Below, piece by piece: positions 11,371 to 49,358 of a DNA stretch of 64,000 nt; the stretch's first letter is position 1; each line of letters starts with the position of its first letter. A model generated the notes under the pieces. The model had not been told where the DNA came from and ran no database searches. It worked only from the letters and a program-made list of their open reading frames with translations. The DNA is from Actinomortierella ambigua (taxonomy: Eukaryota > Mortierellomycota > Mortierellomycetes > Mortierellales > Mortierellaceae). The stretch is taken from contig JAAAJB010000069.1 in the NCBI GenBank assembly GCA_016098155.1, positions 1 to 64,000 of the forward strand. Reading direction: 5' to 3'. The translations under genes and the position numbers were made by a program.

Positions 11371-14300
11371 TACTATGACTATGATCAAGGTGGTCCCCAG
11401 CAGCCTCAGCAATACTCGTCACATGCCTACCATGCCTACCACGCATCATACCCCCAGGAACACCATCAACACCCCCTGTAAGTTGCCCCAGTTTGTTGTG
11501 TCTTATTACTCGGTTGGACTTGAGGTGTGTGGTGGCGATTTTCACCTTTGTATATGTGTGTGTGTATGTTTTTCTCTGAACACGAGAATATGCGGATCGC
11601 CTTGGGCGTATTGTGCTCCATGCTGCCTGAGCTTGAGCTGCACCATCACACGGATGATGGGAAGGGTGACCATGCGCCAATGCTCGAGCGAGAGATGTAC
11701 CACCGATTGTTCCATGCCATCCTCCCCTCCCTCGCCTGAACCACCACCATCTACTCCCTTCCAACTGTTTGTCTCCGCCCATCATCTCTATCTCTATCTC
11801 TTCCCTCCTCCCTCCTCCCTCCCTCCCTCCATCCATTCGTTCGTAACACACACTCGCTCTGCTCCAACAAGCAAGCAGGCAGATATGGGCAACCCTGGAT
11901 GCAGACCGAGGATAGTCAGGAACACAAGAGTGATTGGATAATCTGCTCTTGTTCATATCTCTCTTCTGTTTTTCACGCGCAAGGAATGGAGAGGGACACT
12001 TTGAGCGAAGAGAGAGAGAGGGGGGGGTGAGGACCCTCTTTTTTTTCAGTAGAGTAGGACAGTAATGGCCCCAACCTACGTGCGCACAAGCGATGCAGAG
12101 AGGGGAGGGGTGGATGGGAAGAAACAGAAAAAAAAACAGGGAAGGTTGAGGATGGGGAGAAAGAGGGACACGAGGGAGTAGGGGTGAGTGGAGTGGAGTG
12201 GAGCAAGGGGAAGAGGAGGAAGCTTTCTAGGCAGCATTTAGGCCAGAGGCAGGAACAATACATTGCATTTCACGCAGTTAGGCACAAACAGGAACATTTT
12301 TTGAGCACCCATGAACGTGTGGGTTTGTATATGTGTTCACCACAAGATTGAATTGACAAGAAAAAAAGACATAGGAAAAACCACCTCGAAAGGAGAGAGG
12401 AAACATGGTCTCACAGGTGGAGTTGTTTACAATTTCAGGGGCCAACGAAGGAGGAGAGAGCGAAGGAAAGCCAATGGACCCACCCAATGCACACCACAAC
12501 AGTGAAAGCGCAAAAAAAAAAAAAAAAAAGAGAGAACACAAGAAATTATGAGCCGGTACACACAGAAAAGCAACTCGACAGTTGAAGATATCTCCTCCTC
12601 TGTCGTCTAGCCGGGCATTTGTACTCACTAAAAAAAATACGCGATGCTGCATCTCTTCTTTCCTCAATGTTCTTAGGAGCCCTTCCGTCGAAGGAGGCCC
12701 ACACTTCCAGTACATGCCTCAAAGCGGAGGTAATGGCTCAGCCGTGGGCGCCTCGACCATGGGTTCCAACGGCCTGTACTCGACGTCTGCATCATCTTCG
12801 TCCTCTTCTGCCAGGTAAATTCGGACGAAGAGCTACTTTATCTTTTTGCATGGTGTACGTGTGGGTGTGTGGAGGGGAGGTATGTGCTGTGGGACATGGG
12901 CGAGCTTGTTTTTGTGTCACATGACGATGGTTTTAGGAGAAGGGATGAAAAGAAGCAGAGACCTAGACTTCCCCCCCCCTTCCTTCCTCAACTTCAACGG
13001 GACTGAGCTACTACTGTGTATCTCTGTGTATCTGTGTGAACAATGAAAGGCGATCCTTGCCTGGAGAGAACGATCGAAAGAAAGACAGGAAAGAACGAAT
13101 GAAAGAAGGAAGAGCCTCTATTGTCAATTCAAAAGCCTATTTCAACGTTCACAAATACAAGAGTTGCAGCAGGCACCCTTCCACACACACTACCTCTTCC
13201 CATTATGAAAAGAGCTCACTTGGCTGCTGGCGTGTGTGAATAGGCTATGGGCGAGACTATTTTATTCTTCTGGGAGGTTGTTTTTCGCATTCGCTTGCTA
13301 TCCCTCGGTTTCGCAAACATTCATGAGGGAAAGAGGCAGGATATTTGACTCCAACATCCTTCTCATTCAGCAGGCAGCGGCTTCTCAATCGGCCAATCAC
13401 AGCGATTTAACTAAAATCTTTTTTCCCATCCGCCAATTCTTTGCCCTCTCGCCCCTTTCGCCCTGCTCACTCGGTCCAATCGTATCGATTCCGACCCATG
13501 CGACCATCTCTGTTGGGTTCACACCATTCGACCATGCCTGCCTCCCTTCCAACAACAATAACACAGACACAACAGCTATCCCTCGAACTCAAGCAACCAC
13601 CACTCCTCGGCCTCCTCGGGCACCATGTACAATGCGGGTTTTGACGACTTGCAGGACAGCCCCGGCGGGCCGGGCCACCCCGCAGGGTCCATGCCTCTCG
13701 CCAGTCCCGTCGGCTCCTATGTAGGCCACAGGGACTCCATCCCTGGTTTTAGCTACTCGACTTCGGCGCCTTCGCCCTCAACCATCGTCCGTCCAAAGCG
13801 CCGTTCTGACGTTTATGCCTCGCACGAGAGCCCCTATTTTTACCCAGCTCACCAGCATTACAACCTGTACAGCATGGACAGGAGCGCAAGGTAAATGAGC
13901 CCTTCACTTTTCCCGTCTCTCACCCCCCTCCCCATCGCCCGTCCCCTGACTATCTTCCTCTTTCCCTCACTCTCCGTGCTCTCTTCGGACGTCGGCACTG
14001 TTGGATGTACTGTATCAACATGTGCGTACGACCGTCCTCTCCAGATCTCGTACATCCTAGAGGTTGAGAGGGGAAGGCAAGAGCATTCATGGAAGGGCAA
14101 ACTTATGGCTCATGCATCCACGTGAATCAGTCTTTCATTACTGCTCAGTCAGCCAATTGTCTGGGCTGGAAGCTCTGCTCGCATTCCCAGGAGTACTTGC
14201 TTTGTAGCCTTCTCTGTTACCGCAGCTTCTGCGTGTGCAACCATCCAATTTAATTTTTCTCTTCTATCGTGTTCCCAACCGTTCACCAGAAGAGGAAGGA

Positions 14301-15970
14301 TATACATACTAACACGAGTATATTTGGCCTACTCCTCCTTCCTCCCTCCCTCTCTCTCTCTATCTTCTTCTTCTAGCTACAATGTCAAGATCACTGCCAA
14401 GATTGACCGCGGATTCTTTTTGGCTGCGAATGACTGGACATGCTATCGCCGCAACTATTTCCAGCTGAGCGCATCGTTCTCGATCATTGGCCTGGACACG
14501 TCAATGCACTCCGAGGTGCCTTGTTTGCTGGAGCGAGGTGGAGAGTTGATTACAATCACACAGTTTCTGATCTGCATTGGTGCTCGGATCCAAAACGGCG
14601 AAAAGGTTATCGAGTTGGTCCAGCATACCCCGAAGCGAGACAAGGGCCCACAGATGACCCCACGACCGTCACCTGTGCGAGCCGGCGGAGACCTGAACCA
14701 CAACCCTGAAGAGGCCAACCCAACGGTAGTGACCTTTGAGCGTGTCCAGTTCAAGACAGCGACGGCCAACAATGGCAAGCGAAGGGCGGCCCAGCAATAC
14801 TACCAGGTGCACGTGGACTTGTATGCCGAGACGGATCGAGGCGAGTTGATCATGATGGCAACGTCCAACTCTGCTCCATTGGTTGTCCGCGGTCGATCAC
14901 CGGGTCACTATGCTGACAATGATGAACAGATGATGCAGGCATCGACGATGGGCAACGCCGATTTTGACCGAAGCTACTATGACCGGAACAACAGCGTCAG
15001 TAGCAGCAATGGCGACTACTCATATTACCCTCCCTACTCTTACGGCTCCTACCCTTACCAGTCGCTCAGCTCCGCTTCCCACCTGGCCCAGCAGGGCGCA
15101 TCCCATGACGGCGGCTACTATGATCGTGTTGGCCCAAGCGGCGGCAACGGTGGCCAGGGACCCGAGTCATACCCTACCAGCCCCTTATCACCTGTCAGCC
15201 CTCAGGGTCAGGGTCATCCCGATCAGCATGGCCAAGGCGGTGGTAACGGAGGTGGCAGCGCATACCCGAGCTATATTACGCCGCCACAAGTTTCCCATGG
15301 CTCCAGCCCTGAGGCGGTCTCGCCCGATATGTATAGCCCAGCCGGATTTGTGTCTGGACCCACGACAGATCAAAGCCCGCCTTCATCGTCGGCATCGAGC
15401 ATGCACCGAGTTGCGCCTTTCCATACCCACGCTTACCAGCAGGCATCGTCACAGCAATACCCGAGTGCGCTTGGTCATGACCAACAGCAACAACAATTAC
15501 AGCAACAGGCACAGCAACAGGCACTCTCCTCGGACGGATATGACTATGCGAGTAGCCAGTATGGCGGCAGCGAGCAAGGCTTTGAGGACGACGGGCACGA
15601 GGTGCAGATGGCCGGTCTGCGGATCCATTCTCCAGTCAACTCGCCGCCAGGTACGCCGGCGGTGCCACGTCGGCAATCGTTTAGTGTGGCCAACAAGAAG
15701 GGCGACCGATTGTCGTCGATGGCGGGACCTCAAGGTGTGCGGAAACCACGATCCATCACAGTTTCGGCTGGAGTGGTTCCAGCTGGCGTGGCGAAGCGGT
15801 CGACGAGTAAGACACGGGTGACCTCGACGGTGCACAAGACCATGCTGTTGCCCCATGCCGTCAAGGAGGAGTTGGGCAAGGGTGTCAACAACAATGGTTT
15901 TTCGTCGATGGGCAAGGAACGCAGTATCCCCGAGTCGCCGATGGAGGAACATCATCACCAACCAATCTAG
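10741..15970 (+). CDS. NDT80/PhoG-family transcription factor
   Basis: Four exons: 10741-11477, 12677-12814, 13576-13890 and 14377-15970, giving 927 residues. 10741 is the first ATG of the open frame. The NDT80/PhoG DNA-binding fold starts at about residue 395 with NVKITAKIDRGFF. It continues through NDWTCYRRNYFQLSASFS and QYYQVHVDLYAE and closes with the family's most conserved element, PLVVRGRSPGHYAD, at about residue 568. Family members (Ndt80, Vib-1, XprG, RON1) control meiosis, heterokaryon incompatibility, protease secretion and nutrient responses; which role applies here is unknown. Flanks are disordered: poly-Gln at about 10961-10992 and 11338-11368, Asn/Ser/His repeats, then Tyr/Gly/Pro/Gln-rich sequence. 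Introns 1 (1199 bp) and 2 (761 bp) are long for this window. The three junctions share phase 2, and the two internal exons are multiples of three. Confidence 0.9.
11335..11370 (+). repeat. CAG trinucleotide repeat encoding poly-Gln
   Basis: About ten CAG units with one or two CAA interruptions lie in frame in exon 1 of the NDT80-like gene. A second CAA/CAG run is at about 10961-10992. Both are candidates for length polymorphism. Confidence 0.85.
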
Positions 15971-17864: not shown

Positions 17865-17900
<36 letters not shown>

Positions 17901-17977
17901 GGGAAAAAGGGGGGGGGGGGGGGGGGGGGGAAAGAAAGTGATCAACACAAACACACACACACACTTTTTTTTTCTTC
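17241..17977. other. Upstream region of URA5 with assembly gap and homopolymers
   Basis: This contains the URA5 promoter, then TTTT/GGGG homopolymers around ten Ns, then G-runs at about 17867-17898 and 17909-17930 broken only by short A stretches. It also includes the 3' end of the downstream-reading purine gene. No coding sequence is seen. Base calls across the G-runs are likely unreliable. Confidence 0.7.
17828..17837. other. Assembly gap (10 N) in homopolymer DNA
   Basis: Ten consecutive Ns are preceded by a T18 run and G5 and followed by GGGGGTGGGG. A nominal 10-N gap usually marks an unknown length. The flanking homopolymers explain why assembly failed. Confidence 0.98.
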
Positions 17978-26671: not shown

Positions 26672-29618
26672 TCAGTCGTAATCCAGCGCAATGGTGTAAG
26701 TTGTCCCTTTCGAAACCTCCAACTTAATGAATGTTCCGTCGCGCTCAAATGCAACTGGCTTTGTTCCTTGCAACACCTGAACTTGTACCTTCCCATCCAT
26801 AGTACCAATCTTGACCACCATTGGTCCTGCCTTGCTCAGGGCCTGCAGCTGCACCTGGGTGACTCGGCCTTGACTCCAAATCACATCAACCTTATGGCCC
26901 TCACGTGTCCTGAATCCTTCCACGACTCCCTTTTTCGACCAACGCTCTGGCAGCCCTTGCGGCCACGGGAATACATGCAGTTCACCAGGTCGAAGACTTG
27001 TCACGAGTGTCTCCAGCATGGCCGCGCCAAAGCCAAGGAAGCCTGCCAAGTCACGCGATGACGACGATGAGGCCGGTAGAAGATTCAGCTCATTCTTGTC
27101 CAGATTATGCTTCTTAAACATCTGTAGAGCATCGAGGGCCTTGCCCGTCTCACCCAAACGAGCCCACACGGCCGCCCGCCAGACCTTTGGCCAACCCAAG
27201 TTGCCAAACTCGACGCCTGTGCCCTTGCGATGCAAACTCGTCCTGGCCGCCTCGACCAATTGGTGATGCCGATCTGGATCCTCTGTTCGCTGATAAGACA
27301 GCTGGTTACCTGGGTACACCGCATAGAGATGACCGAGATGGCGACGTCGCTCCGTCCGATCCTCCAGCCCAGCAAGTGTGTATTCCTGTAGCAAACCATC
27401 GGATATAGCGAGCCCCGGGCTGAGGCGTGCATATCTGTCCGTCAGGTTTTGGACAAACACCTTGTCCCGCTCCCCAAGCACCGCGATAGCCTCCAATGTC
27501 GCGTTGAAGAGTTGCCAGATGAGTTGTTGATCCAGTGCTGACCCTTCTGCGAATGGATCTTGCTCTGGAGAATACGAAGGAGAGCTCACAAAGAGACCGG
27601 CATCGTCGTCGTCGATAGGCGTTGGGACAGCACCCTTGTGCGATTGAACGAGAGTGTCGATCCAAAACTGGGAAGCACCCTTGAGCCAAGCGTACGCGTG
27701 ATCGCGCAAAAAGTAATAGTCCTGCGAATAGAGATAGCGATCCCAGGCATGCTGGCAGAGCCAGGCCGCCGCGCCTGGGAAGTAGTAGCTGTTCGAGGTG
27801 CTGGTTGGGCCCGTGTGCGCCCAGACATTGCTATAGGTGTGCGCGATCCAACCGCGCGCGTTATAATGTAGCATCGTTGTGGCCTGCCCGCGATCAACTA
27901 GTAGCTTTTCGATGTAGTCCATCAGAGGTGTCATTGTCTCGCCCAGGTTGGTACTTTCGGCCAGCCAGTAGTTCATCTGCAGGTTAATGTTCAGGCGGAA
28001 GTAGTCTCTAAGAAGAAGAGAAAGGATAGATGGAGTGATTAATTATAAATCATCAATGTACAACACGCTTGCAGATAGGAAAACATCATCCAAACATCAA
28101 CGTTTTCTTACCCAATACCATCCTCGTCTTTGAGAGTGTCATCAGTCCAGGCTATCCGGGAGGCAATGGGCAAAGAGCCTGGCCGCGATGAGATGATCAA
28201 GAGGTACCGTGCGTACTGCAGAAGCAGCAATTCGAGATAGGCCTCTTGATCAAAGGTCTGTCCCTCCTTGGCATAGGCCTTGGTGGCCACCTTGATTAGC
28301 TGATCCGTTGGCAGCGTGTTCACAGGCTGGTTGAAATCGATGCTGAATCCTTTGAAGAGAGCTCCAACATCCTCGGTGTGTTTGATGTACTGATCCTGGT
28401 ACCATAAAGTAGTCGCCTTGTCAAGTAGACTCGTGAGGTGATCGTGTGGGTCCTGGTCCTGGAATCCAGGATAATTGGCTACCGACCAACCAGTACCCAT
28501 GGCATAGTACAAGGTCACCGAGTCAAAGCCCAGGGCTATAATCCTAGTCTTGTCGGACATGGTTACTCCAGTACCACCCTCGGTCTTGAGGGCCACTTGG
28601 GCCTCGATCGTCATGTTGTTCGAGGGAAGGCTGGCGCGGAAAGTGAGGCGGTTATGGACGTTGGAATACTCTGCCGCGTACGGTGTTTCAAAGCGTACGC
28701 TAATATCAACCTTCTTGGGTTCGCTCGCTTGGATTCTCATCATGCATACGGATTCAGGGTTGCTACAAAAGTGCTCTCTGTGGGTAGCAGGCATTTTTTT
28801 TATCAAGACAAGAGAAAGAAGGGGATGGTTTGTTTCAGCCCAAACACAATGCCTTTTTTTCCTCTTCACAACTGGATAAAGTTAACAGAGTATTACCTCG
28901 TATAGTTCACATCGCCAACAGAGAAGGACACTTTGACAACGCCTTTGCTCAGATCCAGCTCTCGCCGATAGTCCCAGACCTGCTCAAAGGGGTACATCTC
29001 CTCAATCACAATGCTGCCAAAGGGCGCTGGGTGCCCAAATCCGTGCTCATCGCCCATCAGGCCCTTGGTGACATCACTCTTGGAGGGCAGGTACGCCTTC
29101 TCTGCCAGGATGTGCTGCACTCGTTCCAAGCTTTTGAGACGCTTTGGAGCGCTCTCCTCATCGACATTGCCGCCTCTATACTTCTTGTACTCGTTAGGAC
29201 CTCCTGTCCAGCACGACTCCTCGCTTAACAAGAGCCGCTCTCGGTTGACCATGCCTGGGACAAGGACCTGCATAGGCCCATTGCCAATAACCAGACCTTC
29301 CCTTTCCACATTATCGTCTTCAGCAGGGCGGCGGTACCAAAGACTAAAGGTGGAGTTGGGAACCGTCGATGTTCCGACCAGGCGAGGTTCAGAAGCACCA
29401 TCAGGGTATGTCTGTTGACGTGATAGAAAGGCAGCGGCTTGGTCGCGCAAAGTTGGACGAGTCGTAGAGGAGGATTCCGCTGGAGACGGCTGGAAGGCTA
29501 CTTGATCGACACCGCCAAAAACATCCTCGACCTCCGCGGTTACGCGTGCCAAGAGCAAGGGTACGCTGCAGAGAAGCCCTAGAGTCAGCCTCTCGTGAGT
29601 ATGAAGTGGTAGCCTCAT
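26672..29618 (-). CDS. Secreted GH95-family glycosidase (1,2-alpha-L-fucosidase-like)
   Basis: Three exons: 29618-28897, 28777-28112 and 28007-26672, giving 907 residues. Residues 1-28 form a signal peptide (basic start, LTLGLLCSVPLLLARVTA), so the enzyme is probably secreted. The N-terminal beta-sandwich carries LWYRRPAEDDN...GLVIGNGPMQVLVPG and LLLSEESCWTGGPNEYKKYRGG, the GH95 signatures. The first junction regenerates NYTREHFCSNPESV, a conserved block. The (alpha/alpha)6 catalytic domain contains NINLQMNYWLAESTNL, with the paired Asn residues that assist the base in the family, then AAAWLCQHAWDRY. The SPSYSPEQDP segment has its Glu where the general acid is expected. GH95 enzymes remove terminal alpha-L-fucose or L-galactose from plant or algal polysaccharides by inversion. 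The exact sugar cannot be read from sequence. Confidence 0.92.
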
Positions 29619-31376: not shown

Positions 31377-33265
31377 ATGAGCGAGAATGGGGGCACTAGC
31401 GATAGAGACCAACATCTCAGCGCCCTCACCACATCATCAGGACGGACGTCGTCTGGACATGCCTCTGCTGCTGCAGCATCATTAGCTCGGCTCAACTCGA
31501 GCTCATCCTTGGCGTCCTCCATTGCATCAGCTGAGGAACGACTTCAAAGTGAGATGCAGAGCGACAGCGTTGGAAACAGACCGACAACGAGCCAAGGAGC
31601 GGCCGCGACGGTAGCCAGTAGCATCCGAGGACCACCCCATGAGCGGCTAGACAGCTATGGCGACCACATCGGTCCGGAGCAACCAACTCAGGTGACCAGT
31701 ATGACGAGTACACATCCTGCGGAGGAGCGTGGTGATCTGGCCGTTAGTATTCGCTTTGGCGAAGGGCCAGACCTTTCGCTCCATGTCGCACAACTAGATA
31801 CCGTGGCAGATGTCAAGGAGAAGGTGAGGACATTAATATCTGTGAATGACCGTCGGGACAACTTTTTTTTTCTCATTTTTTCGAGGGTCGGTCCTTGCTC
31901 CCTCCTGAACTCACAGGACTTTTGACTCGTTGTCTACCATGCAATACTTAGATTAAGGCTGCTCGGCCAGCCATTGAAAACAAGTACCTTCGTCTGATCC
32001 ATGCTGGCAAAATCTTGGCAGACGAAAAAACCATGATCGAGTCGCTTCCAAAGTCGCTTTTTACACATTACGAGGTCCCAGTGGAGCCGTCTACGCGATC
32101 ACGGATATCAACATCATTCGAAGCAGCTGTGAACCATATTCTGACCTCACACCCACATCAGCAGCACCAACAGGACAAATCCCGGACCAGTCATGATAGT
32201 CTGCGGCGAGCGCCCTTGTCCGCTGGGTCTGTCACTGCATCACTCGGGTCCATCCTTCCAACACACATCATGCAACCAGAGACTTCCATTCCATTCTCTT
32301 CAGAGGACGAAACCCATCCTAGTATACCCTCCAGCAACAAAGGCAAGGGCAAAGCGAACGACTATGTCGCGATTGATATTCCGCCCGAGGACTCTGCGTC
32401 GACTTTAGATGCCACAGCCAATACAACCATCAAGACTAGTATACCCCTTCAGACCGGCCCTATCTATATTCTCTGCTCCATCTCTGATCTGCCTCCAAAT
32501 CAGCGACTATCATCTTCCATCAAAGGCAAGGCTGTCGCCAGCAACCGTTCTATTGACAGTAATGGTACAATGACTTCGACTCGGACAGGACGCGTACGGC
32601 GTGGGGGCGGGCCAGCCGGTCGCAGTCGGATAGGCGAAGGGTCGTCGTCAACATCTTCTTCACCCTCGAATATGCAACAACAGCAACATCAACGAGGAGG
32701 AGAGCAAGAAGCGGATTCTGAGGAAGATGAAGAGAACCAAGAGGACACTGCGCTCCTATCACCAGTCATCGTTCCACCAGCGACCGGATTTGATCGGCTC
32801 CGTGAAGCTGGGTTCAGCGAGGAAGAGATTCGGTCGATTCGACGCGAGTTTCATGCTAGTCGACAGGCCACGGACTCGTCGCTGGTGGGTGAAAATGGCA
32901 TCGAAGTAGAGCAAAACGAGGACGCAGAGGCTCAAGCGCGGCGCATCGAAGACGAGTGGATCGACAGGCACGGGTCAGAGACGCTACCGGAAGGCCTTGA
33001 AGGCAGCTATGGCGAGATGGTGTGGGGCCTCATGCTTGGCTTCTTCATGGGCTTGATATCGCTCTTTTGGTTCAAGGAGGCAACCTTTACGCGGCGGCAG
33101 CAAATGGGTACGTATACTGGAACCATCTTTTCGGCAGCGATGCACGGCCAACACTTTCTATTCTTGTTATGTTTTTACTGACTTGCTCTATCTCTTTTCT
33201 GAATGATAGGTATCGTCGCGGGCATGACTCTCAATCTCGTTTTTGGCATCCTTCGGTTCCTGTAG
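31377..33265 (+). CDS. Dsc E3 ubiquitin ligase complex subunit 3-like (DUF2407)
   Basis: Three exons: 31377-31823, 31952-33107 and 33210-33265, giving 552 residues. The start is the first ATG (MSENGG). Residues 1-~120 are Ser/Ala-rich and disordered. A ubiquitin-like fold follows (SIRFGEGPDLSLHVAQL, DTVADVKEKIKAARP, LRLIHAGKILAD), split by intron 1. GPIYILCSISDLP lies in a linker, then the DUF2407 C-terminal block GFDRLREAGFSEEEIRSIRREFH. Two membrane helices close the protein (MVWGLMLGFFMGLISLFWF and GIVAGMTLNLVFGILRFL), the second encoded by a 56-nt last exon. In S. pombe and Aspergillus, the Dsc complex sits in Golgi/endosome membranes, ubiquitinates membrane proteins and activates the sterol regulator SREBP. 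The gene ends 143 bp before the next one, on the same strand. Confidence 0.88.
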
Positions 33266-33408: not shown

Positions 33409-36400
33409 ATGGACACTCCCATTACCGCTCGACCTGCGAGCGCACCCCCGCGCACAGGAGATGCAATCCCTCCTGCCCCTGCATCTAGTGGTACACGGCC
33501 AGCAAAGAACTCCAAGGGCTCCAATCCATCGACTACTAGTGATAGCACGACATCCCCCTCGCCTTCAGGTAGCCGCAAGAGCAAAAGCGGCACGCCCAAA
33601 GGTTCTCCTTCGCCACTGAGGAGGTCAAGACCGCAAGACAAGCAAGGTGATGGAGCCAACAGCGTCGCTGCTAGTGATGGCTCCTCTTCCACCACTGCCG
33701 CCTCGGTTGGATTAGGTGTGTCGACAGGCACCACAATCAAGGATACGTCCACAGGGGCTCAGGACACACCACGGCCTCCTACGTCCAAAGGGCCAGGCAG
33801 CGTCCAGACTAATAGCGGACCATCTGTTAAGAGCGCGAACCGCAAGGAGAAGCAGCAGCAGACATCTGTACCTGAACCATCGGCATCGGCAGGACCGGAG
33901 GGCGTGGCCCGTGAGAATGGCAGTACCAAGCCTGCTGCAAGTGACCAGGCGCCTGTGCAGGCTGGCACAAACGAAACTAGCGACACGGCCAAGGCGGCAG
34001 CGCCACCGCCATTGTCCTCCTCACCAGCGACGTCAGCCAAAGGCGCCGCTGAAGACGTGGAGACCGACTCCAAAAAGGGCCAAAAGTTGACATCAGCAAG
34101 ATCACAAAAGGTTTCGGCCAAACCTCGCAAGAGCCAACAACAGCCAGCAGCCACGACACCAGGAACAAGCGAGCAGAAGGCAAGAGCGGACAATGATACA
34201 ACGGCATCCCGAGAGCCCGTGGTCGATGCCACACCTGGAGCAACACCTTCCACCCTTAGCGGAGCTGCAAGTCCATCGGTTGACGATACCGCTGGAGGCT
34301 CAGCCAACAAGAAGCGCAAAGACAAGCGCAAACCTACCAAAAGAGGGAGTGGCCTGGCATCTGGAGGAGACGAGACATTAGAGGCACCGTTGGCCTTGGT
34401 AGAAACACCCGCGCCATCAGAGGCATCGTCCACAATGCCCCAACGGACGGCTAAGCATCATGGCCCCAAGTCGACTGCAATCTTGGCTGCTGCTGCGGGA
34501 GGAGGAGGAGAAGCAAACAGCAATGAGACAACCGGAAAGTCGACTTCAGAACCACCCACCAAAGGGAATGGCCCTACTGAGGCCTCGCCTTCGACTGGCG
34601 GTGATCCCTCAGATGCTTCAGGGGCTCCACGTGCGTCTTCACCACGTCCTGGCAGAGGGGGCAAGGCAACGACCAAACCACAAAGACCTCCTCGAGAGAA
34701 GCCTGAGCGCCCGTGGCTCCAACCGACTGGTGGAGCAGCTACAACAACGTCTGCTACGGAAGAACGTCGGCCAGCTAGGTCAACACCGCGTAGTAACGCG
34801 AAGGAGTCCTCCACCCCATCACTAGCTTCCTCCTCTGCCAAAGATACCACGGTCGCAGCACCGGACATGGCGACGGAGGGCGAGTCTTCGAGGGCGCCTC
34901 CTCCACTGAACGAACGGCCTGTACGGGAGCGTGGTCCCCGAGCAACAACAATGCGGCAGCAAAGAACCGAGGAGTCTGCATCATCCAGGATGGCCACACG
35001 CGAGAGACCGGCGTTCGCAGAGGGAATTCAGCGGCGGCATGGTGAAGCTCATCAAGGGGGTTCCTTCACGGACACTACCACCCGCGAGCGATTCTCAGAC
35101 AGGGGTGGGCGCTCCACACGAGGTGGTGGTGCTGGTGCTGGTGTTGGCAGTAGCCTGTCTCGTGTGTCTGGAGCGAGGAATGGACCATCATCACTTGATG
35201 CGCGTTCCGCTCGACAAGAGGCCATTCGCCGGGAACGAGAGCTTCGACAGCAGCAGCAGCAGGAGGGGGAAGGGGAGGGGCAGACCAAGCCAGATGGTGA
35301 GACTCAGGGTTCTGAAGCAGACCAGAACAACACTGCAACAACGATCCGGGATAAAGAGCCATCTGCAAGGCCCCCCAGGCTTGAAGCTGGCCCCTTCAGG
35401 CAGCCATCTACCACCGAGCCGGTTAGAGGAGGAGGCCCATTTTCAAAGGGTGCTCCGACGTCCTCTGCACCGCCTGCGGCCAGAAAGGACGCGGATGGAC
35501 ATGGATCCTGGAGAGAAATCAAGGCCCCTGGAATGGCGACATCGCGCTTTGGCCCTTCAACATCACGACCCCTGCGCCCCGAACGAAAGGAAGGCTTTGG
35601 CACAGGCCCCAGGATAACGAAGGTAAGATATTCACACTTTTATTGTCACATGCACTTATTCTTGAATCACCCAGATGAACAATGATAAGCTACGGCAGTG
35701 TACCTAAACCTGACGTTGTCATTCGATTGTGATTCCTTTAGGATGGACTCCTTGCCAACTCGATGATCTGCTATATGACCTGGGAAGAGATGAAGCTCCG
35801 ACCGGATGTCATTGAGCGCATTCACCGAAACGGGTATGTTCTTTTAAGACGTCAAAAGAAAGAAAGAAAGAAAAGGGCTACGACAACTTGATACAGTTCC
35901 TTTTTATATGAGAAGGGACTCTCATCATTCAACTACCCTCCCCTCCTATAATTAGATTGAAACGCCCTTCAAATGTGCAAAAGCTAGCCCTGGTTCCGTT
36001 TGGGGAGGGCAAGGACATTATTGCGCAGGCACAATCGCAAAACGACCGAACCAACACGTTCGCCATTGGGGCTCTACAAAAGCTTAAGAGAGATGTCAAG
36101 CGCTGCCAGGCGGTGGTGATTTGCTCCGATGCAGTACAACCGCAGCAGGTATTCAAGGATCTGGAACGGTGGTTTGAAGGCAGCGGATTGAGTTGCGTGA
36201 TGCTGAACGAGACATCGAACGAAGAGTTGGAGAGGCTTTACGGATCGGCAAAGACAACAACAAATGGAGCAGCGGCTGTGGACCATCCTTCATCACCACA
36301 GGTGGCTGTGACGACACTCGGACGGCTGACCGAGGTGATGGATCAAGGGCTGTTAGAGACGAGTACGGTTGACACAGTCGGGATCTGTATGGCACAGCAC

Positions 36401-37188
36401 GAGATTGTCGATTTTGAAGCGTTCAAGAATCTGTGGCCCAAACTGTCATTGTCGCGAGAGGCCCAGGTGGTGGTGATGACGGGAATCATGTTGCGGAGGC
36501 TGCGGCAGGTCAAGACGCAGTACCTTCGACCCAACGCGCTGGTTCTGCGAGCGGATGAGCTGACACTCAAGTGGAGCGACCATTATGTGATTCGACTCGA
36601 TTCTCCGGAGCAGCGGTGGCCAACGCTGGTTGAAATCTTCCAGAGGAACAAAACGATCAGCCACACAGTGATTGTGACCCCGTCCCACAGTGTCACCCAG
36701 AATCTGGTCTCACAGCTCAAGGAGCTTGGCGTGCCTGCCCACGGCATCGTAAGTATTTCCTTTTTTTTTTTTTTTCTAGAAGGTCATGAGGATGGAAGTG
36801 AGTCGGGTAAAGTCACAAGGCCAATGGAACATTGTTGGACTCACCCTAAAATTCCCTTCGTTTTTTTTTCCGGTCACTTCTTTTTTAGTGGAGCATGGCG
36901 GACAAAGTTCAGATGGCCGAGCTGTTCAACAAACCAGGCGACTGTGTGCTGGTTGTGGAGAGTGTGCTGACGGCTGAGCTGGACCTGGATCACGATTCGC
37001 TGGTGATCAACTATGAGATTCCGTGGAAGGCGTCGTTCTACATGTCAACCTTTGGACTCTTTGGGCGATCGGGTCTGCGGACGATGATGATCAACCTGTT
37101 GCTCAAGAGCAAGCCGACGGATAGTGCCATGCTTGAAGAGCTCGAGACCCAGTACGATATCAAGATTGCAGAGATGGAACTCGCTTGA
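33409..37188 (+). CDS. eIF4A-like pseudo-DEAD-box protein with 738-residue disordered N-terminus
   Basis: Four exons: 33409-35622, 35742-35833, 35956-36748 and 36889-37188, giving 1132 residues. Exon 1 alone encodes 738 residues rich in Ser/Thr/Pro/Lys/Arg with RGG-like pieces (RGGRSTRGGG), typical of disordered RNA-binding tails. Residues ~745-1132 follow the eIF4A/Fal1 helicase core from Q-motif to C-terminus: TWEEMKLRPDVIERIHRNGLKRPSNVQ, KDIIAQAQS, DLDHDSLVINYEIP and a final LEELETQYDIKIAEM matching the eIF4A end. The catalytic motifs are lost: Walker A AQSGTGKT is AQSQNDRT (794-801), DEAD is AQHE (915-918), SAT is TGI, and HRxGRxGR is STFGLFGR (1086-1093). It should therefore not hydrolyse ATP. 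The frame is open across four exons, so it is probably a functional scaffold or regulator of translation or mRNA complexes rather than a pseudogene. Function is not established. Confidence 0.85.
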
Positions 37189-42511: not shown

Positions 42512-45500
42512 ATGGAACACATCAATGCAACGACGGTGACCCTCCTCGTGGTGGTGGCCGGTGTCGGTGCATACTACGTCTATCTGAACGTGGTGGAGCC
42601 CAAGGCTCGCATGCAACGGGCCATCCAGGCCGAGCAGGCTCAACGTGAACTCCTGGGCGAGCACGAGAGCCAGCAGAAGCTGCAGCAGAAGCGCGCTAAA
42701 CCCAAGCAGGCTAAGAAGAAGTAAGCTTTTTTTTCAAACATGTTTTCACGCATCATTGTTGCCATCACTGGGGTGCAACAGCTATGACCGAGGGATGAAG
42801 TGAACGTGCGTCTGCCAAGAAGGGTCATGGACGAGAAACCACGCACTAGATCGCCCCACTACGACAACACACAGAATGTACAGTGGGTTAGTCAGCGAGT
42901 GAGCTGTCAGATGGGTCACTTGCCTCCTCTCCCCCTTCCCTTCTTGATCCAACACGGGCGACACTTTGACCCTTTTGCATCTGCCTTGTATTGTCGTCCA
43001 CCCACCCACCCCCCTCCGCTCCACCGTAGGAGGTGATCACAAGAGAATGGACACTCGATCGGTCTATGACAGAGTCGGGGGGGGGGGCGTTGGAGCGGTG
43101 GGATCTCCAGGCCTTTTTGTGGGTGTACGGGAAACGTACAATTCTCCCGTGGCTGCTCAGATGGTGGCACAAATGCTGTGCACCCGGTAACATGTAAAAC
43201 ACTGTTGATGCTGGGAACTTACTTTGGGGATTCTCTCTCTCTGCCTCTCTCTCTCTCTCTTCATCTCTCAGACCTGTTCAGCAACAGCGTGTGCAAAAGA
43301 TCAAGGAGGACAAGGATGAGACCGCTAGCTCGGAAGGCGAAGTCGACGAAAAGGTCGTATCGTTCAACCCTTACGACGCTCTGAACAAGCCCGAGTCTCC
43401 TGTGATCCCCAAGAAGGCCAAAAAGTCCAAGAAGGCTGCATCTGCCTCCCAGACTCCCGCCCCCAAGCCCGCCATCTCTGAGAACAAGAAGACCATTGCC
43501 CCAACACCTGCTGAAGTCGCTACCCCTGCTGTAGCCTCCGTTGCCGCCACTGTTGAGATTGTCCAAAAGTCTGCTGACAAGGAGGAGCCCAAGAGCAAGA
43601 AGGCAAACAAGAAGGCATCTACTCCTGCCCCTGCTTCTGCTGCTGCTCCTGCTCCTGTTGTTACTCCTCCTACTCCTGCTCCCAAGACGGAGGCTGCCAA
43701 GCCTGCTGAGAAGATCAAGTCTGCTCCCGCCCCTGCCCCTGCTGAGGTCACTAAGCCTGTTGCAAAGCCAGAGGTCAAGGAAGAGGTTGTTGAGCGCTCT
43801 GTTCCCGCCCCCGCCCCTGCCCCTGCTGCACCCGTTGTCGCTGCTCAGGATACCGTCCTTAAGAGTGAGCTGGATGAGCTGAAGGTTTTGCTGGAGGCAA
43901 AGGAGCGTCTCGTCAAGGCTGCTGAACAGTCTGCTGCAAAGGCACAGGCCCAGGTCAAGGATTTGCAAAAGAAACTGGATGAGAATGCAGAGGTTGTCAA
44001 GGCCGCCAAGAAGGCCGAGAGCCGCTCGCAGGCAGTCCAGTCCAACGTCGACTCGCTCAACTACACGAACGGTCTGCTTGTGAAGCAGCTGGCCCTGGAG
44101 AAGGAGCACACCAAGGCAGCTCAGGCAGAACTCAAGAGGATCTCGGCGCAAGCCGACATTGTGACCGAGCTGACTAACAAGGTGCAGTACCTGGAGAAGA
44201 CGCGCGATGGCCTCGAGGCCCAGTTCAGCGATGTTCAGCAGCAGCGCACGCGTGCCGAGAACGAGGCTGCCCAGCTGACGCGCCAGATGCACGATGTGGA
44301 GCACCGCCTGGACGGTGCTCTGCGCGAGCGCGCCGACTACTACCACAAGGTGTCGATGGTGCTGACGGAGAAGGACGGTCGCATTGCATCGCTGGAGGCC
44401 GATTACGGCGCGCTGGAGGTTGAGCTCGAGAACACCAAGATGCAGATCGAGCAGTATGCCGAGGCGGTGACGCAGGCCGAGGAGATGTCGCACAGCAACC
44501 TGGAGAAGTTTGAGGCTGAGAAGCACTCGCTGATCGAGGAGATTGATATGCTGCGCAACCAGGTGGCCCAGGAGTCGAGCAAGCATGGCCAGCTCGAGAC
44601 CAAGTACCAGCAGGCCCAGGATCTGCTGCGTGAGGCCGAGACCGACCTTGCCAAGAGCAAGGACGATCACAAGGCCCTGCTGGCTAAGCATGACGACCAC
44701 ACCAAGACTGCCCAGGCCAAGGACGCCGAGACTGTTGCTCTGACGGAGAAGATGGCCGTGCTGCAGACCGACCTGGAGGCGGTTTGCAAGGAGCGCGATA
44801 CAATCCAGTCGCAGCTGACGGAGGTGCAGGCGTCCCACGCCACGCACCTGAAGGTGCAGCAGGAGCAGTTTGACGTGGTGACGAAGGAGCTCGAGACCTC
44901 CAACAGCCAGATTGCGGCGCTGGTGGAGAAGCAGCAGACGTTGACGACACGCATCAACGAACTGACGGAGCGATCGGCCGAGAATGCCGAGAAGGCGCAG
45001 GAGCAGTCCGGCACGTTGCAGAAGCGGATCGAGGAGTTGCAGCAGGAGATGGCTGCCAAGCAGGCGGATGCCAAGCTGATCATGAGCGAGAAGGAGGATC
45101 TGGCCACCAAGCTGACCGCTGCCCAGCAGGCTGCCGAGTCGGCCAAGAAAGAGCACGCCTCGGTGGCTGCTCAGGTGTCGGCGGCCAACAAGGCCGAGCT
45201 CGAGGCTGCTCAGAAGGAGAAGGAGGCCCTGGCGGCTCTGGTGGCCCAGAAGGACGAGGCCCTGGCTGGCTTGACCAAGGCCAAGACGGAGCTCGAGGCC
45301 CAGCTGGCTACCAAGACCGAGGCAGCCAAGTCTGCTGCCGCTGATCAAGAGTCAAAATTGACGGCCCAGATCGAGGAGGCCAAGAAGGCCGCCAAGGACC
45401 TGGAGTCGCAGCTGAAGGCCAAGGCTGAGGAGGCCAAGAAGGCCACCGCGGACCTCGAGTCCCAGCTGGCTGCCAAGGCGGAGGAGGTCGAGCAGGTGAC

Positions 45501-45942
45501 TGAGGAGAAGGTGTCGCTCTCCTTGGACCTGGATCGGGCTAACAAGGCCAAGGCCAAGGCCAACGCCGAGCTCGAGGCCTTGATCGAGTCCACCAACATC
45601 AAGAAGGGTGAGAACGAGACCCAGAAGGCCGCGCTCACCGCTCGTGTTCAGGAGCTGGAGGCTGAGGTTGCAAAGTTGATCAAGCAGCAGAGCGAGCAGA
45701 AGATCGAGTCGGCGCCCGAGACTGATGCTGGTGCCGAAACGGCGACCAACGGCAACGGTACTGCCAAGACCGAGACTGCTACGGAGGGTGGTGCGAAGAA
45801 GAAGAAGAAGAAGAACAAGAAGAAGAAGAACAAGGAGGGCAAGGAGGAGAGCGAGGAGCAGGAGGACAGCGAGGGACAAGAGCCCGAGACCATTAATGTC
45901 CAGCAGGATCAGGTGGAGGGCGTTGCCGTGGCCACCTTCTAA
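42512..45942 (+). CDS. ER-type membrane-anchored lysine-rich coiled-coil protein (p180/kinectin architecture)
   Basis: Two exons: 42512-42720 and 43272-45942, giving 959 residues. Residues ~8-28 are one hydrophobic helix (VTLLVVVAGVGAYYVYLNVV) next to the N-terminus, followed by positive charge, so it should be an N-terminally anchored membrane protein with a cytosolic body. A Lys-rich stretch (KKAKKSKKA), then Ala/Pro repeats (PAPAPAP), resembles the ribosome-receptor KP-rich region. From about residue 260 to 880 the protein is continuous heptad-type coiled coil rich in Glu/Gln/Ala/Lys. The tail carries a KKKKKNKKKKNK cluster and acidic residues. This layout matches p180/kinectin proteins, which organise rough ER and bind ribosomes or microtubules. 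Direct homology cannot be judged from low-complexity sequence. Codon use is strongly biased to C/G-ending codons, suggesting high expression. Confidence 0.75.
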
Positions 45943-48012: not shown

Positions 48013-49358
48013 ATGGCTGAAAGCACTGAAAGCACCACCGCTAGCGCCAGCAGCCCTCCAGGAGCTTCGGGAACCGCCGTGCAGCCACAACCGACTTGGA
48101 CTCCATCTCAGGAACTCGGTGCAAAGTTGGTCTTTGGAGGCATTGGGTGCATGGTCGCTGTTGTCTTTACCAACCCTGTCGATGTCATCAAGACAAGGCT
48201 ACAGTTGCAAGGCGAACACCATGGCGGCAGTGCCGCTCACCCACATGCCCAGCGAGCATTGCACCCTGTCGCTGTTCAAAACCCATCTCCGCTGGTGATC
48301 TCAGTCTCCGCTTCGGCGCCGCATTCGCAACCCTTGACACCACCACTTGCCCATACGACAGGCTTCAGGACAGCTCATAGCACGGTGGTGGTCGAAGGAC
48401 TGGCCGAGTCAGCAGCCATGCAGTCGTCGCCACCTAAACCAACACTCCGTCTCCTGCCCTTGCTGCGCGACATTGTTCGAAACGAGGGACCGCGGGTGTT
48501 GCTGGCTGGGCTGGCACCGGCAGTGTTGCGGGAGAGCATCTACTCGACGATCCGATTTGGCAGCTACGATCTCTTCAAGGGCCTCTATAGCGGCATGGGT
48601 GCTGGACTGAGAGGAGGAGAGGAAACGTCGACCATGGTCAAGCTTGGTGCAGGCCTCACCTCGGGCATGGTTGGCAGTGTCATTGCCAATCCTACGGACC
48701 TGATCAAAGGTAAAAAAAAAAAAAAAAAGCAAAATGCTAGAGAAAATATGGGGAAACAGAACAGACGCTTTGGCGTTTCCAACAACTTGTTGACATTTCC
48801 ATTGCATCTCAATCAAATCATGACGAATTATACATAGTCCGGTTACAAGCGCATTCTCCGAGCGGCAAGCCACGTTACCACTCGATTGCAGACGCCTGTC
48901 GATCAATCTACATTGAGGAGGGACTCCCAGGACTGTACCGAGGCGTTGTTCCGACCGCTGCACGCGCTATGGTTGTCACGGCCTCACAGCTCGCCTCGTA
49001 CGATACGACTAAACACTGGCTCTTGGGATTGAAGAGCTCAACAGGACAACGTTATTTCAGTGAGGGCTATGGTGTCCACTTTTTGGCCAGTACTATAGCG
49101 GGTCTTGTCTGTTCCATCTCAACTTCGCCGATCGATACCGTCAAGGTCCGCTACATGAACCAACAGTTTAACGCTCAGGGCAAAGGAAACCTGTATAGTT
49201 CGGCGCTGGACTGCGTCATCAAGACGATGCGCAACGAGGGGCCTTTGGCCCTCTACAAGGGCTTCCTTGCCTGCTGGATGCGTCTTGGCCCACATACTTT
49301 GCTTTCTCTCATGATCTTTGAGAAGCTGCGGAGTCTTGTTGGGATGAATCCTGTCTAG
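48013..49358 (+). CDS. Mitochondrial carrier (SLC25; UCP/dicarboxylate-like)
   Basis: Two exons: 48013-48709 and 48838-49358, giving 405 residues. Three carrier repeats are present with the PxDxxK signatures PVDVIKTR (from residue 55), PTDLIKVR (from 227, completed across the splice) and PIDTVKVRYMNQ (about 330). The paired downstream motifs EGPRVLLAGLAPAVLRE, EGLPGLYRGVVPTAARA and EGPLALYKGFLACWMRLGPHT complete each repeat. The last repeat resembles uncoupling-protein/dicarboxylate/oxoglutarate carriers of the inner mitochondrial membrane. Two additions make it longer than the usual ~300: a 30-residue Ser/Ala/Pro N-terminus, and about 70 residues of His/Ser/Pro/Ala-rich sequence in the first matrix loop. 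The transported metabolite cannot be assigned. Confidence 0.92.

Follow-up and report, generated by a model that had tools for sequence, protein, structure and literature searches.

In the first 64,000 nucleotides of contig JAAAJB010000069.1 from Actinomortierella ambigua (assembly GCA_016098155.1, 33.8 megabases), a stretch referred to in the following as the window, we found a gene on the + strand (33409-37188) that encodes a pseudo-eIF4A. This protein combines a long N-terminal arm predicted to be disordered with a C-terminal domain homologous to the DEAD-box protein eIF4A in which the catalytic motifs are lost. As judged from their sequences, this protein and its relatives are a new pseudohelicase family, of which no description was found in the open-licence papers of PubMed Central. 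The reading that we prefer, with a probability of roughly 0.6, is that the protein is a retained old eIF4A duplicate whose domain docks to partners independently of ATP and is tethered by the disordered arm, probably in the regulation of messenger ribonucleoproteins (mRNPs). Descriptions of pseudohelicases are few, and a paper from 2022 (PMC9539457) named Utp25 as only the second to be proposed.

The gene consists of four exons with GT..AG intron borders, which form a single open frame of 1132 codons plus stop, as the original prediction from the bare sequence had proposed (Table 1). The translation of the joined exons was letter-for-letter identical to an NCBI protein (P0001 in our set). P0001 is not new to the databases, where it goes under a plain eIF4A name. 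eIF4A names stand on 28 of 47 family entries, and as regards activity their sequence does not support such a name.

Residues 739-1132 (394 amino acids, aa) matched human eIF4A-I in a phmmer search with an E value of 3.2e-29 and 105 bits, covering domain residues 13-393, and yeast eIF4A, eIF4A3 and Sub2 with 94, 90 and 71 bits, respectively. Whole-domain similarity was higher to eIF4A-I than to the other DEAD-box families listed, and a profile-profile comparison with eIF4A gave a probability of 100%. This similarity is far above chance and bears out the proposal that the C-terminal ~390 residues can be laid along eIF4A; the stretches KDIIAQAQS, LVINYEIP and LETQYDIKIAEM, said to be kept, are all present in the translation. 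In a Pfam scan of the window's protein the DEAD domain scored above the cut-off (9e-7) and Helicase_C (0.008) below it. Pfam scans of 8 members gave three extra weak matches within the helicase domain (DRTGG, Asp1 and UvrD_C), all below cut-off.

The fate of the catalytic motifs was read from an alignment of 46 family members and 104 canonical proteins, with a further member, P0155, read separately. The P-loop (Walker A, GxGKT) is absent in all 47 family proteins, among which an ortholog with intact motifs had been looked for, and both Gly and the Lys are present in 104/104 canonical proteins. Where canonical proteins have G-T-G-K-T the family has Q-[KNRYD]-D-R-T, the first Gly being Q in 45/46 members and R in one, and the replacement letters D799 and R800 being fixed in 46/46 each. 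The Asp-Glu of the DEAD motif is replaced and the SAT motif reads TG. in 46/46 members. HRIGRGGR (motif VI) became mostly SSFGPFGR with the final Arg retained in 36/38, and the first His, first Arg and middle Arg are not among the letters listed for 39 members. In the window's protein, motifs I (AQSQNDRT, 794-801), III (TGI, 944-946) and VI (STFGLFGR, 1086-1093) are destroyed just as originally described. The reading of AQHE as the former DEAD did not hold, since the alignment places motif II at M914-A-Q-H917 and makes E918, invariant in 46/46, the residue that follows it.

Among 98 columns that are at least 95% conserved in the canonical set, the family kept 27, carried another letter at 90% or more in 22, and did neither in 49. 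Retained residues include the Q-motif Gln (Q777, 39/39) as well as S796 and T801 (46/46), whereas PMNVADLI, with which eIF4A ends, is missing. Other residues are fixed specifically in this family, such as W975 (45/46), W990 (44/44), R967-A968 ahead of DELT (46/46) and a WSMADK block. Loss of the catalytic motifs in a gene that is itself conserved makes the protein a pseudohelicase, whose inactivity we infer from sequence. Because motif residues were replaced and the replacements then fixed, which neutral decay would not leave behind, selection for a non-enzymatic role is indicated, in agreement with the earlier argument for selection rather than decay. Across the lineage, several replacement residues in this family are fixed to the same degree as the catalytic residues of eIF4A, alongside an intact eIF4A. 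The family offers a natural way to ask which roles the eIF4A fold can fill when ATP plays no part.

A search with the domain yielded 33 proteins, namely the window's own, 31 relatives and an ordinary DEAD-box protein (P0033). A profile search added 14 relatives (P0034-P0047) among the best 120 of 598 matches, where scores dropped from 346 bits at the lower end of the family to 172 bits for the first canonical eIF4A. A search with one relative's arm gave 10 matches and contributed P0155, a clear member, and the N-terminal fragments P0152-P0154. In total this makes 47 domain-bearing proteins, the window's and 46 relatives, some of which are fragments. The 36 members with an organism name all belong to Mortierellaceae and represent 11 genera: Actinomortierella, Podila, Mortierella, Haplosporangium, Linnemannia, Entomortierella, Dissophora, Lobosporangium, Modicella, Gamsiella and Gryganskiella. 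No named member from outside this family of fungi was found among the 33 domain-search matches, the best 120 of 598 profile matches and the 10 arm-search matches. As the domain search missed P0155, the profile search scored the 8000 candidates with most shared words and 36/47 members are named, absence beyond Mortierellaceae falls short of proven.

Domain identity within Actinomortierella was 78-81% compared to 51-61% for the arm (two comparisons), and 50-51% compared to 18-20% in relation to four relatives from outside that genus. The domains of P0001 and P0002, whose records both carry the name Actinomortierella ambigua, were only 81% identical, which suggests that one strain was mislabelled or that a cryptic species is present.

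Intact motifs are present in two other proteins of the same genome, an eIF4A, which scores 597 bits against human eIF4A-I, and a Fal1-like protein, which scores 696 bits against human eIF4A3. Intron 2 of the pseudo-eIF4A gene interrupts a Gly codon at the same site and in the same phase (2) as an intron of this genome's eIF4A gene; the Fal1-like gene has that codon interrupted too, but in phase 1. From this intron and the similarity scores we conclude that the family is probably an old eIF4A duplicate, copied at the DNA level, although a single intron makes this conclusion only moderately strong. The family came out of a phylogenetic tree as one clade (support 100/100) nested in a group with eIF4A and Fal1 (95/98); its stem is 3.8 changes per site long (3.8-4.0 across trees). 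Neither this nor a second tree resolved its attachment point within that group. Approximately unbiased (AU) tests on the second tree gave p-AU values of 4e-45 for family+eIF4A, 1e-4 for family+Fal1 and 0.07 for eIF4A+Fal1. Because the Fal1 labels were BLAST-based and poor, with both label groups scattered on the tree, we drew no inference from the rejection of both labelled groupings; the tests lend no support to an eIF4A origin, for which the scores and the intron speak.

Structure prediction was consistent with this architecture. For the relative P0034 the modelled domain consisted of the two RecA domains expected from the original prediction, with a predicted local distance difference test (pLDDT) score of 83. 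Structural matches of this model included chains solved with MIF4G-type partners, and ATP-analogue-bound eIF4A1 scored nearly as high. The low-confidence model of the window's own protein had eIF4A1 as top structural match (E 8e-12, probability 1.00), but with a template modelling (TM) score of 0.39 and a root-mean-square deviation of 16. In that model residues 2-599 (one residue excepted) and 620-749 had a pLDDT below 50, as disorder would give, and this covers nearly all of the 738-residue region that had been called disordered. The arm had also been described as RGG/Ser-rich and RNA-binding-like. Ser-richness was confirmed as part of an S/A/P/T-rich composition; RGG is weak with 4 occurrences in 738 aa. 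As regards the RNA-binding label, no known domain, RNA-binding domains included, was found in the arm in Pfam scans of 8 members at E<=10, whose filters discard the majority of weak matches. No PAM2-like, eIF4E-binding, FDF or CIM-like motif was found when 32 arms were scanned with regular expressions, and only W.PK turned up (13/32).

Across 33 arms, several of which are truncated gene models, we found four islands that are each rare in shuffled arms: KKRK..RK, resembling a nuclear localization signal (NLS; 26/33, 0.2% of shuffles), SSL[DS].R (26/33), PRRGF (23/33) and KWGE..PW (28/33). The window's arm carries the first two only. In most relatives the main feature of the arm is GW/WG rather than RGG. 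GW/WG dipeptides were more frequent than in shuffled arms at p<=0.01 in 28 of the 29 proteins from outside Actinomortierella (P0004-P0032; p values uncorrected, proteins related), with a maximum in P0028 (33 observed, 7.7 expected) and SGGWGE.PA as the common context. The P0155 arm was likewise enriched (p 0.001), and the sole non-enriched arm among the 29 was that of P0024. This protein (Mortierella alpina, annotated as eIF4A-I, 670 aa) appears to be the C-terminal half, and the GW-rich hypothetical protein P0154 (771 aa) the other half, of one gene split by gene prediction; the contigs that carry the two have an identical length (12,091). All three Actinomortierella arms, the window's included, contain 2 Trp and no GW/WG, and an exact, not intron-aware search for the DNA pattern of KWGE..PWE gave 0 matches in the window's genome. 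Since Actinomortierella is one side of the family's first split (support 99/98; remainder 90/89), gain of GW elsewhere or loss in Actinomortierella are equally possible.

According to our preferred reading, an old eIF4A duplicate would have shed the residues that bind and hydrolyse ATP and that grip RNA in the canonical way, after which it would have been kept throughout Mortierellaceae as a non-enzymatic protein. Its two RecA domains may act as a protein-docking module independent of an ATP cycle, with new contact surfaces possibly formed by D799, R800, W841, W929, W975, W990, WSMADK (1034-1039) and FG.FGRSGLRT. The disordered arm, which has GW/WG repeats in the majority of genera, might tether this module to other RNP proteins, and its NLS-like stretch might give access to the nucleus. 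The likeliest place of action would be mRNP control, for example by taking the place of eIF4A or DDX6 on a MIF4G partner with no unwinding.

Several points weigh against this. The full-length model of the window's protein was poor overall (mean pLDDT 45 over 1132 residues), and P0034, whose domain was modelled well, is only 44% identical and had canonical eIF4A sequences in its model's alignment. Retention of Q777 in 39/39 members makes some nucleotide binding conceivable. Furthermore, the acidic residues for MIF4G contact are only partly kept. In the columns that we take to be equivalent to D270 and D273 of eIF4A3, a mapping ambiguous by one column, the first is D or E in 26/45 and the second K or R in 44/45 members. 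The exchange D270K/D273K abolishes binding of eIF4A3 to the MIF4G protein CWC22, according to a portion of PMC4482076.

For most Mortierellaceae a GW182-like silencing adaptor is a possible alternative, to which we give less credit. Here, the GW/WG arm would dock Argonaute and the dead domain the eIF4A/DDX6 site on CNOT1 or eIF4G, so that targets of small RNAs would be translationally repressed; the Actinomortierella protein would work without Argonaute or through another contact. The enrichment in 28/29 arms, with the one exception looking like half of a split gene, speaks for this idea. So does the Trp spacing: of 260 intervals between GW/WG tryptophans, 60% span 10-17 residues, and according to a review (PMC9262622) each Argonaute (AGO) binding site has at least two Trp, separated by ten residues or more. 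The window's genome further contains Piwi-domain matches on four contigs (C521, C89, C49, C434), of which the Argonaute on C89 has human Argonautes among its matches (AGO3, 389 bits), and RNA-dependent RNA polymerase matches on two. In addition, eIF4A2 is an effector of the microRNA pathway via Ccr4-Not in a section of PMC6886185. However, the Actinomortierella arms are without GW/WG although Argonautes are present in the window's genome, so that the window's protein itself misses the AGO-hook repeats. Moreover, GW repeats can bind other proteins, Argonaute binding is putative and the MIF4G-contact acids are degraded. A still more tentative version would make the protein the Mortierellaceae counterpart of GW182, with the arm recruiting Argonaute and the dead eIF4A filling the helicase site of CCR4-NOT or eIF4G. 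If true, silencing would proceed by plugging in a dead helicase, which Actinomortierella keeps without the GW arm.

Of the functions named along with the original prediction, eIF4A decoy, eIF4G-binding scaffold and splicing subunit are all putative. It seems rather unlikely that the protein is an eIF4A decoy or inhibitor whose domain prevents cap-dependent translation by sitting on eIF4G in place of eIF4A. The closest similarity to eIF4A-I and the structural matches with MIF4G partners would fit, albeit with ATP-analogue-bound eIF4A1 nearly equal, but the half-kept acid pair, the missing PMNVADLI end and the conserved NLS-like stretch pointing to the nucleus do not. That stretch and PRRGF would suit a nuclear splicing or export factor which took over an eIF4A3/Sub2-like role without ATP. 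This is similarly doubtful, as no Btz/CASC3, SR or exon-junction complex domain was found in the filtered Pfam scans of 8 members at E<=10 and the window's protein is devoid of PRRGF. Less probable still is a nucleotide-binding switch, in which the kept Q motif and the Arg in place of the P-loop Lys would bind nucleotide without hydrolysis; Q777 and T801 are retained throughout, but P-loop Gly and Lys as well as the DEAD Asp-Glu are replaced. Finally, we rejected as highly improbable a decaying pseudogene or gene-prediction artefact, which lost motifs and a long stem branch might suggest, for the same changes are fixed in 47/47 proteins with the named ones spanning 11 genera, the domain is far more conserved than the arm and the frame is intact across four exons.

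Table 1. Coordinates of the pseudo-eIF4A gene and of other features in the window.
Feature	Position	Strand	Content	Basis
Cytochrome P450	1286-2329			Pfam
NDT80/PhoG-like DNA-binding protein	14126-15967			Pfam
Nearly pure G run	17868-17930		63 bases, 93% matches	
GH95 glycosidase	26675-28042			Pfam
Dsc3-like subunit of DSC E3 ubiquitin ligase	31952-33265	+	upstream neighbour; frame 31952-33178	Pfam Dsc3_C, 2e-16
Exon 1	33409-35622	+	residues 1-738 (exactly 738 codons); disordered S/A/P/T-rich arm	frame and borders, composition
Exon 1, islands			residues 301-308 KKRKDKRK, conserved NLS-like stretch; residues 595-618 predicted helix, opened by conserved SSLDAR	
Intron 1	35623-35741	+	phase 0	
Exon 2	35742-35833	+	residues 739-769; pseudo-helicase domain begins	frame, alignment to eIF4A
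Intron 2	35834-35955	+	phase 2, within Gly codon preceding LKRPSNVQ	
Exon 3	35956-36748	+	Q motif PSNVQK kept; motifs I (AQSQNDRT), Ia, II and III lost; Ib altered (TLGR); invariant RADELT linker, then beginning of second RecA domain	
Intron 3	36749-36888	+	phase 0	
Exon 4	36889-37188	+	second RecA domain; family-specific WSMADK; motif V lost; motif VI replaced by STFGLFGRSGLRT; stop	
Open frame	43198-45939	+	914 aa	
Open frame	43264-45351	-	696 aa	
Tandem repeat	45349-45487		54-base-pair (bp) unit	
Mitochondrial carrier	48013-48834			Pfam

The stop codon of the Dsc3-like gene, according to our reading of its last exon, lies ~140 bp upstream of the pseudo-eIF4A start codon, with a run of 27 A in between. 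Elsewhere in the window two long open frames overlap on opposite strands alongside the tandem repeat; GC content at third codon positions (GC3) was 0.76 on the + strand, and the + frame had no Pfam match at E<=0.001. Likewise, no Pfam match at this threshold was obtained for a 462-aa open frame adjoining the G run.

With human eIF4A-I and yeast eIF4A the pseudo-eIF4A shares the two predicted RecA domains, an end-to-end alignment, the Q-motif Gln, the DELT linker and the SLVINY block, and with this genome's eIF4A also an intron position and phase. It differs from eIF4A by the loss of motifs I, Ia, II, III, V and VI, the altered motif Ib, the missing PMNVADLI and the added 738-aa arm. eIF4A3/Fal1 is next in similarity (90 compared to 105 bits for eIF4A-I) and the NLS-like stretch would fit a nuclear protein, whereas the lost motifs, the intron in another phase of the same codon and the half-kept CWC22-contact acids set the two apart. 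Utp25, the DEF pseudohelicase, resembles the protein in its inactive DEAD-box-like fold and disordered N-terminal extension, both described in an extract of PMC9539457. There its sequence is called considerably diverged, whereas eIF4A was found here by plain sequence search, and Pfam scans of 8 members at E<=10 detected no Utp25 family. GW182/TNRC6 and other AGO-hook proteins share disordered GW/WG repeats, mostly 10-17 residues apart, with 28 of 29 relatives outside Actinomortierella. This is an unexpected link between an eIF4A fold and Argonaute-hook-like repeats in most genera; in contrast to GW182, the C-terminal part is a dead eIF4A domain here, the window's protein has no GW and Argonaute binding is putative. 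Wild-type eIF4A2 and DDX6 are helicases with intact motifs, whereas these motifs are lost in the pseudo-eIF4A, for which CNOT1 binding is putative. For these two CCR4-NOT regulators, a passage of PMC6736043 describes that a DEAD-box fold can work through binding to CNOT1 without RNA binding.

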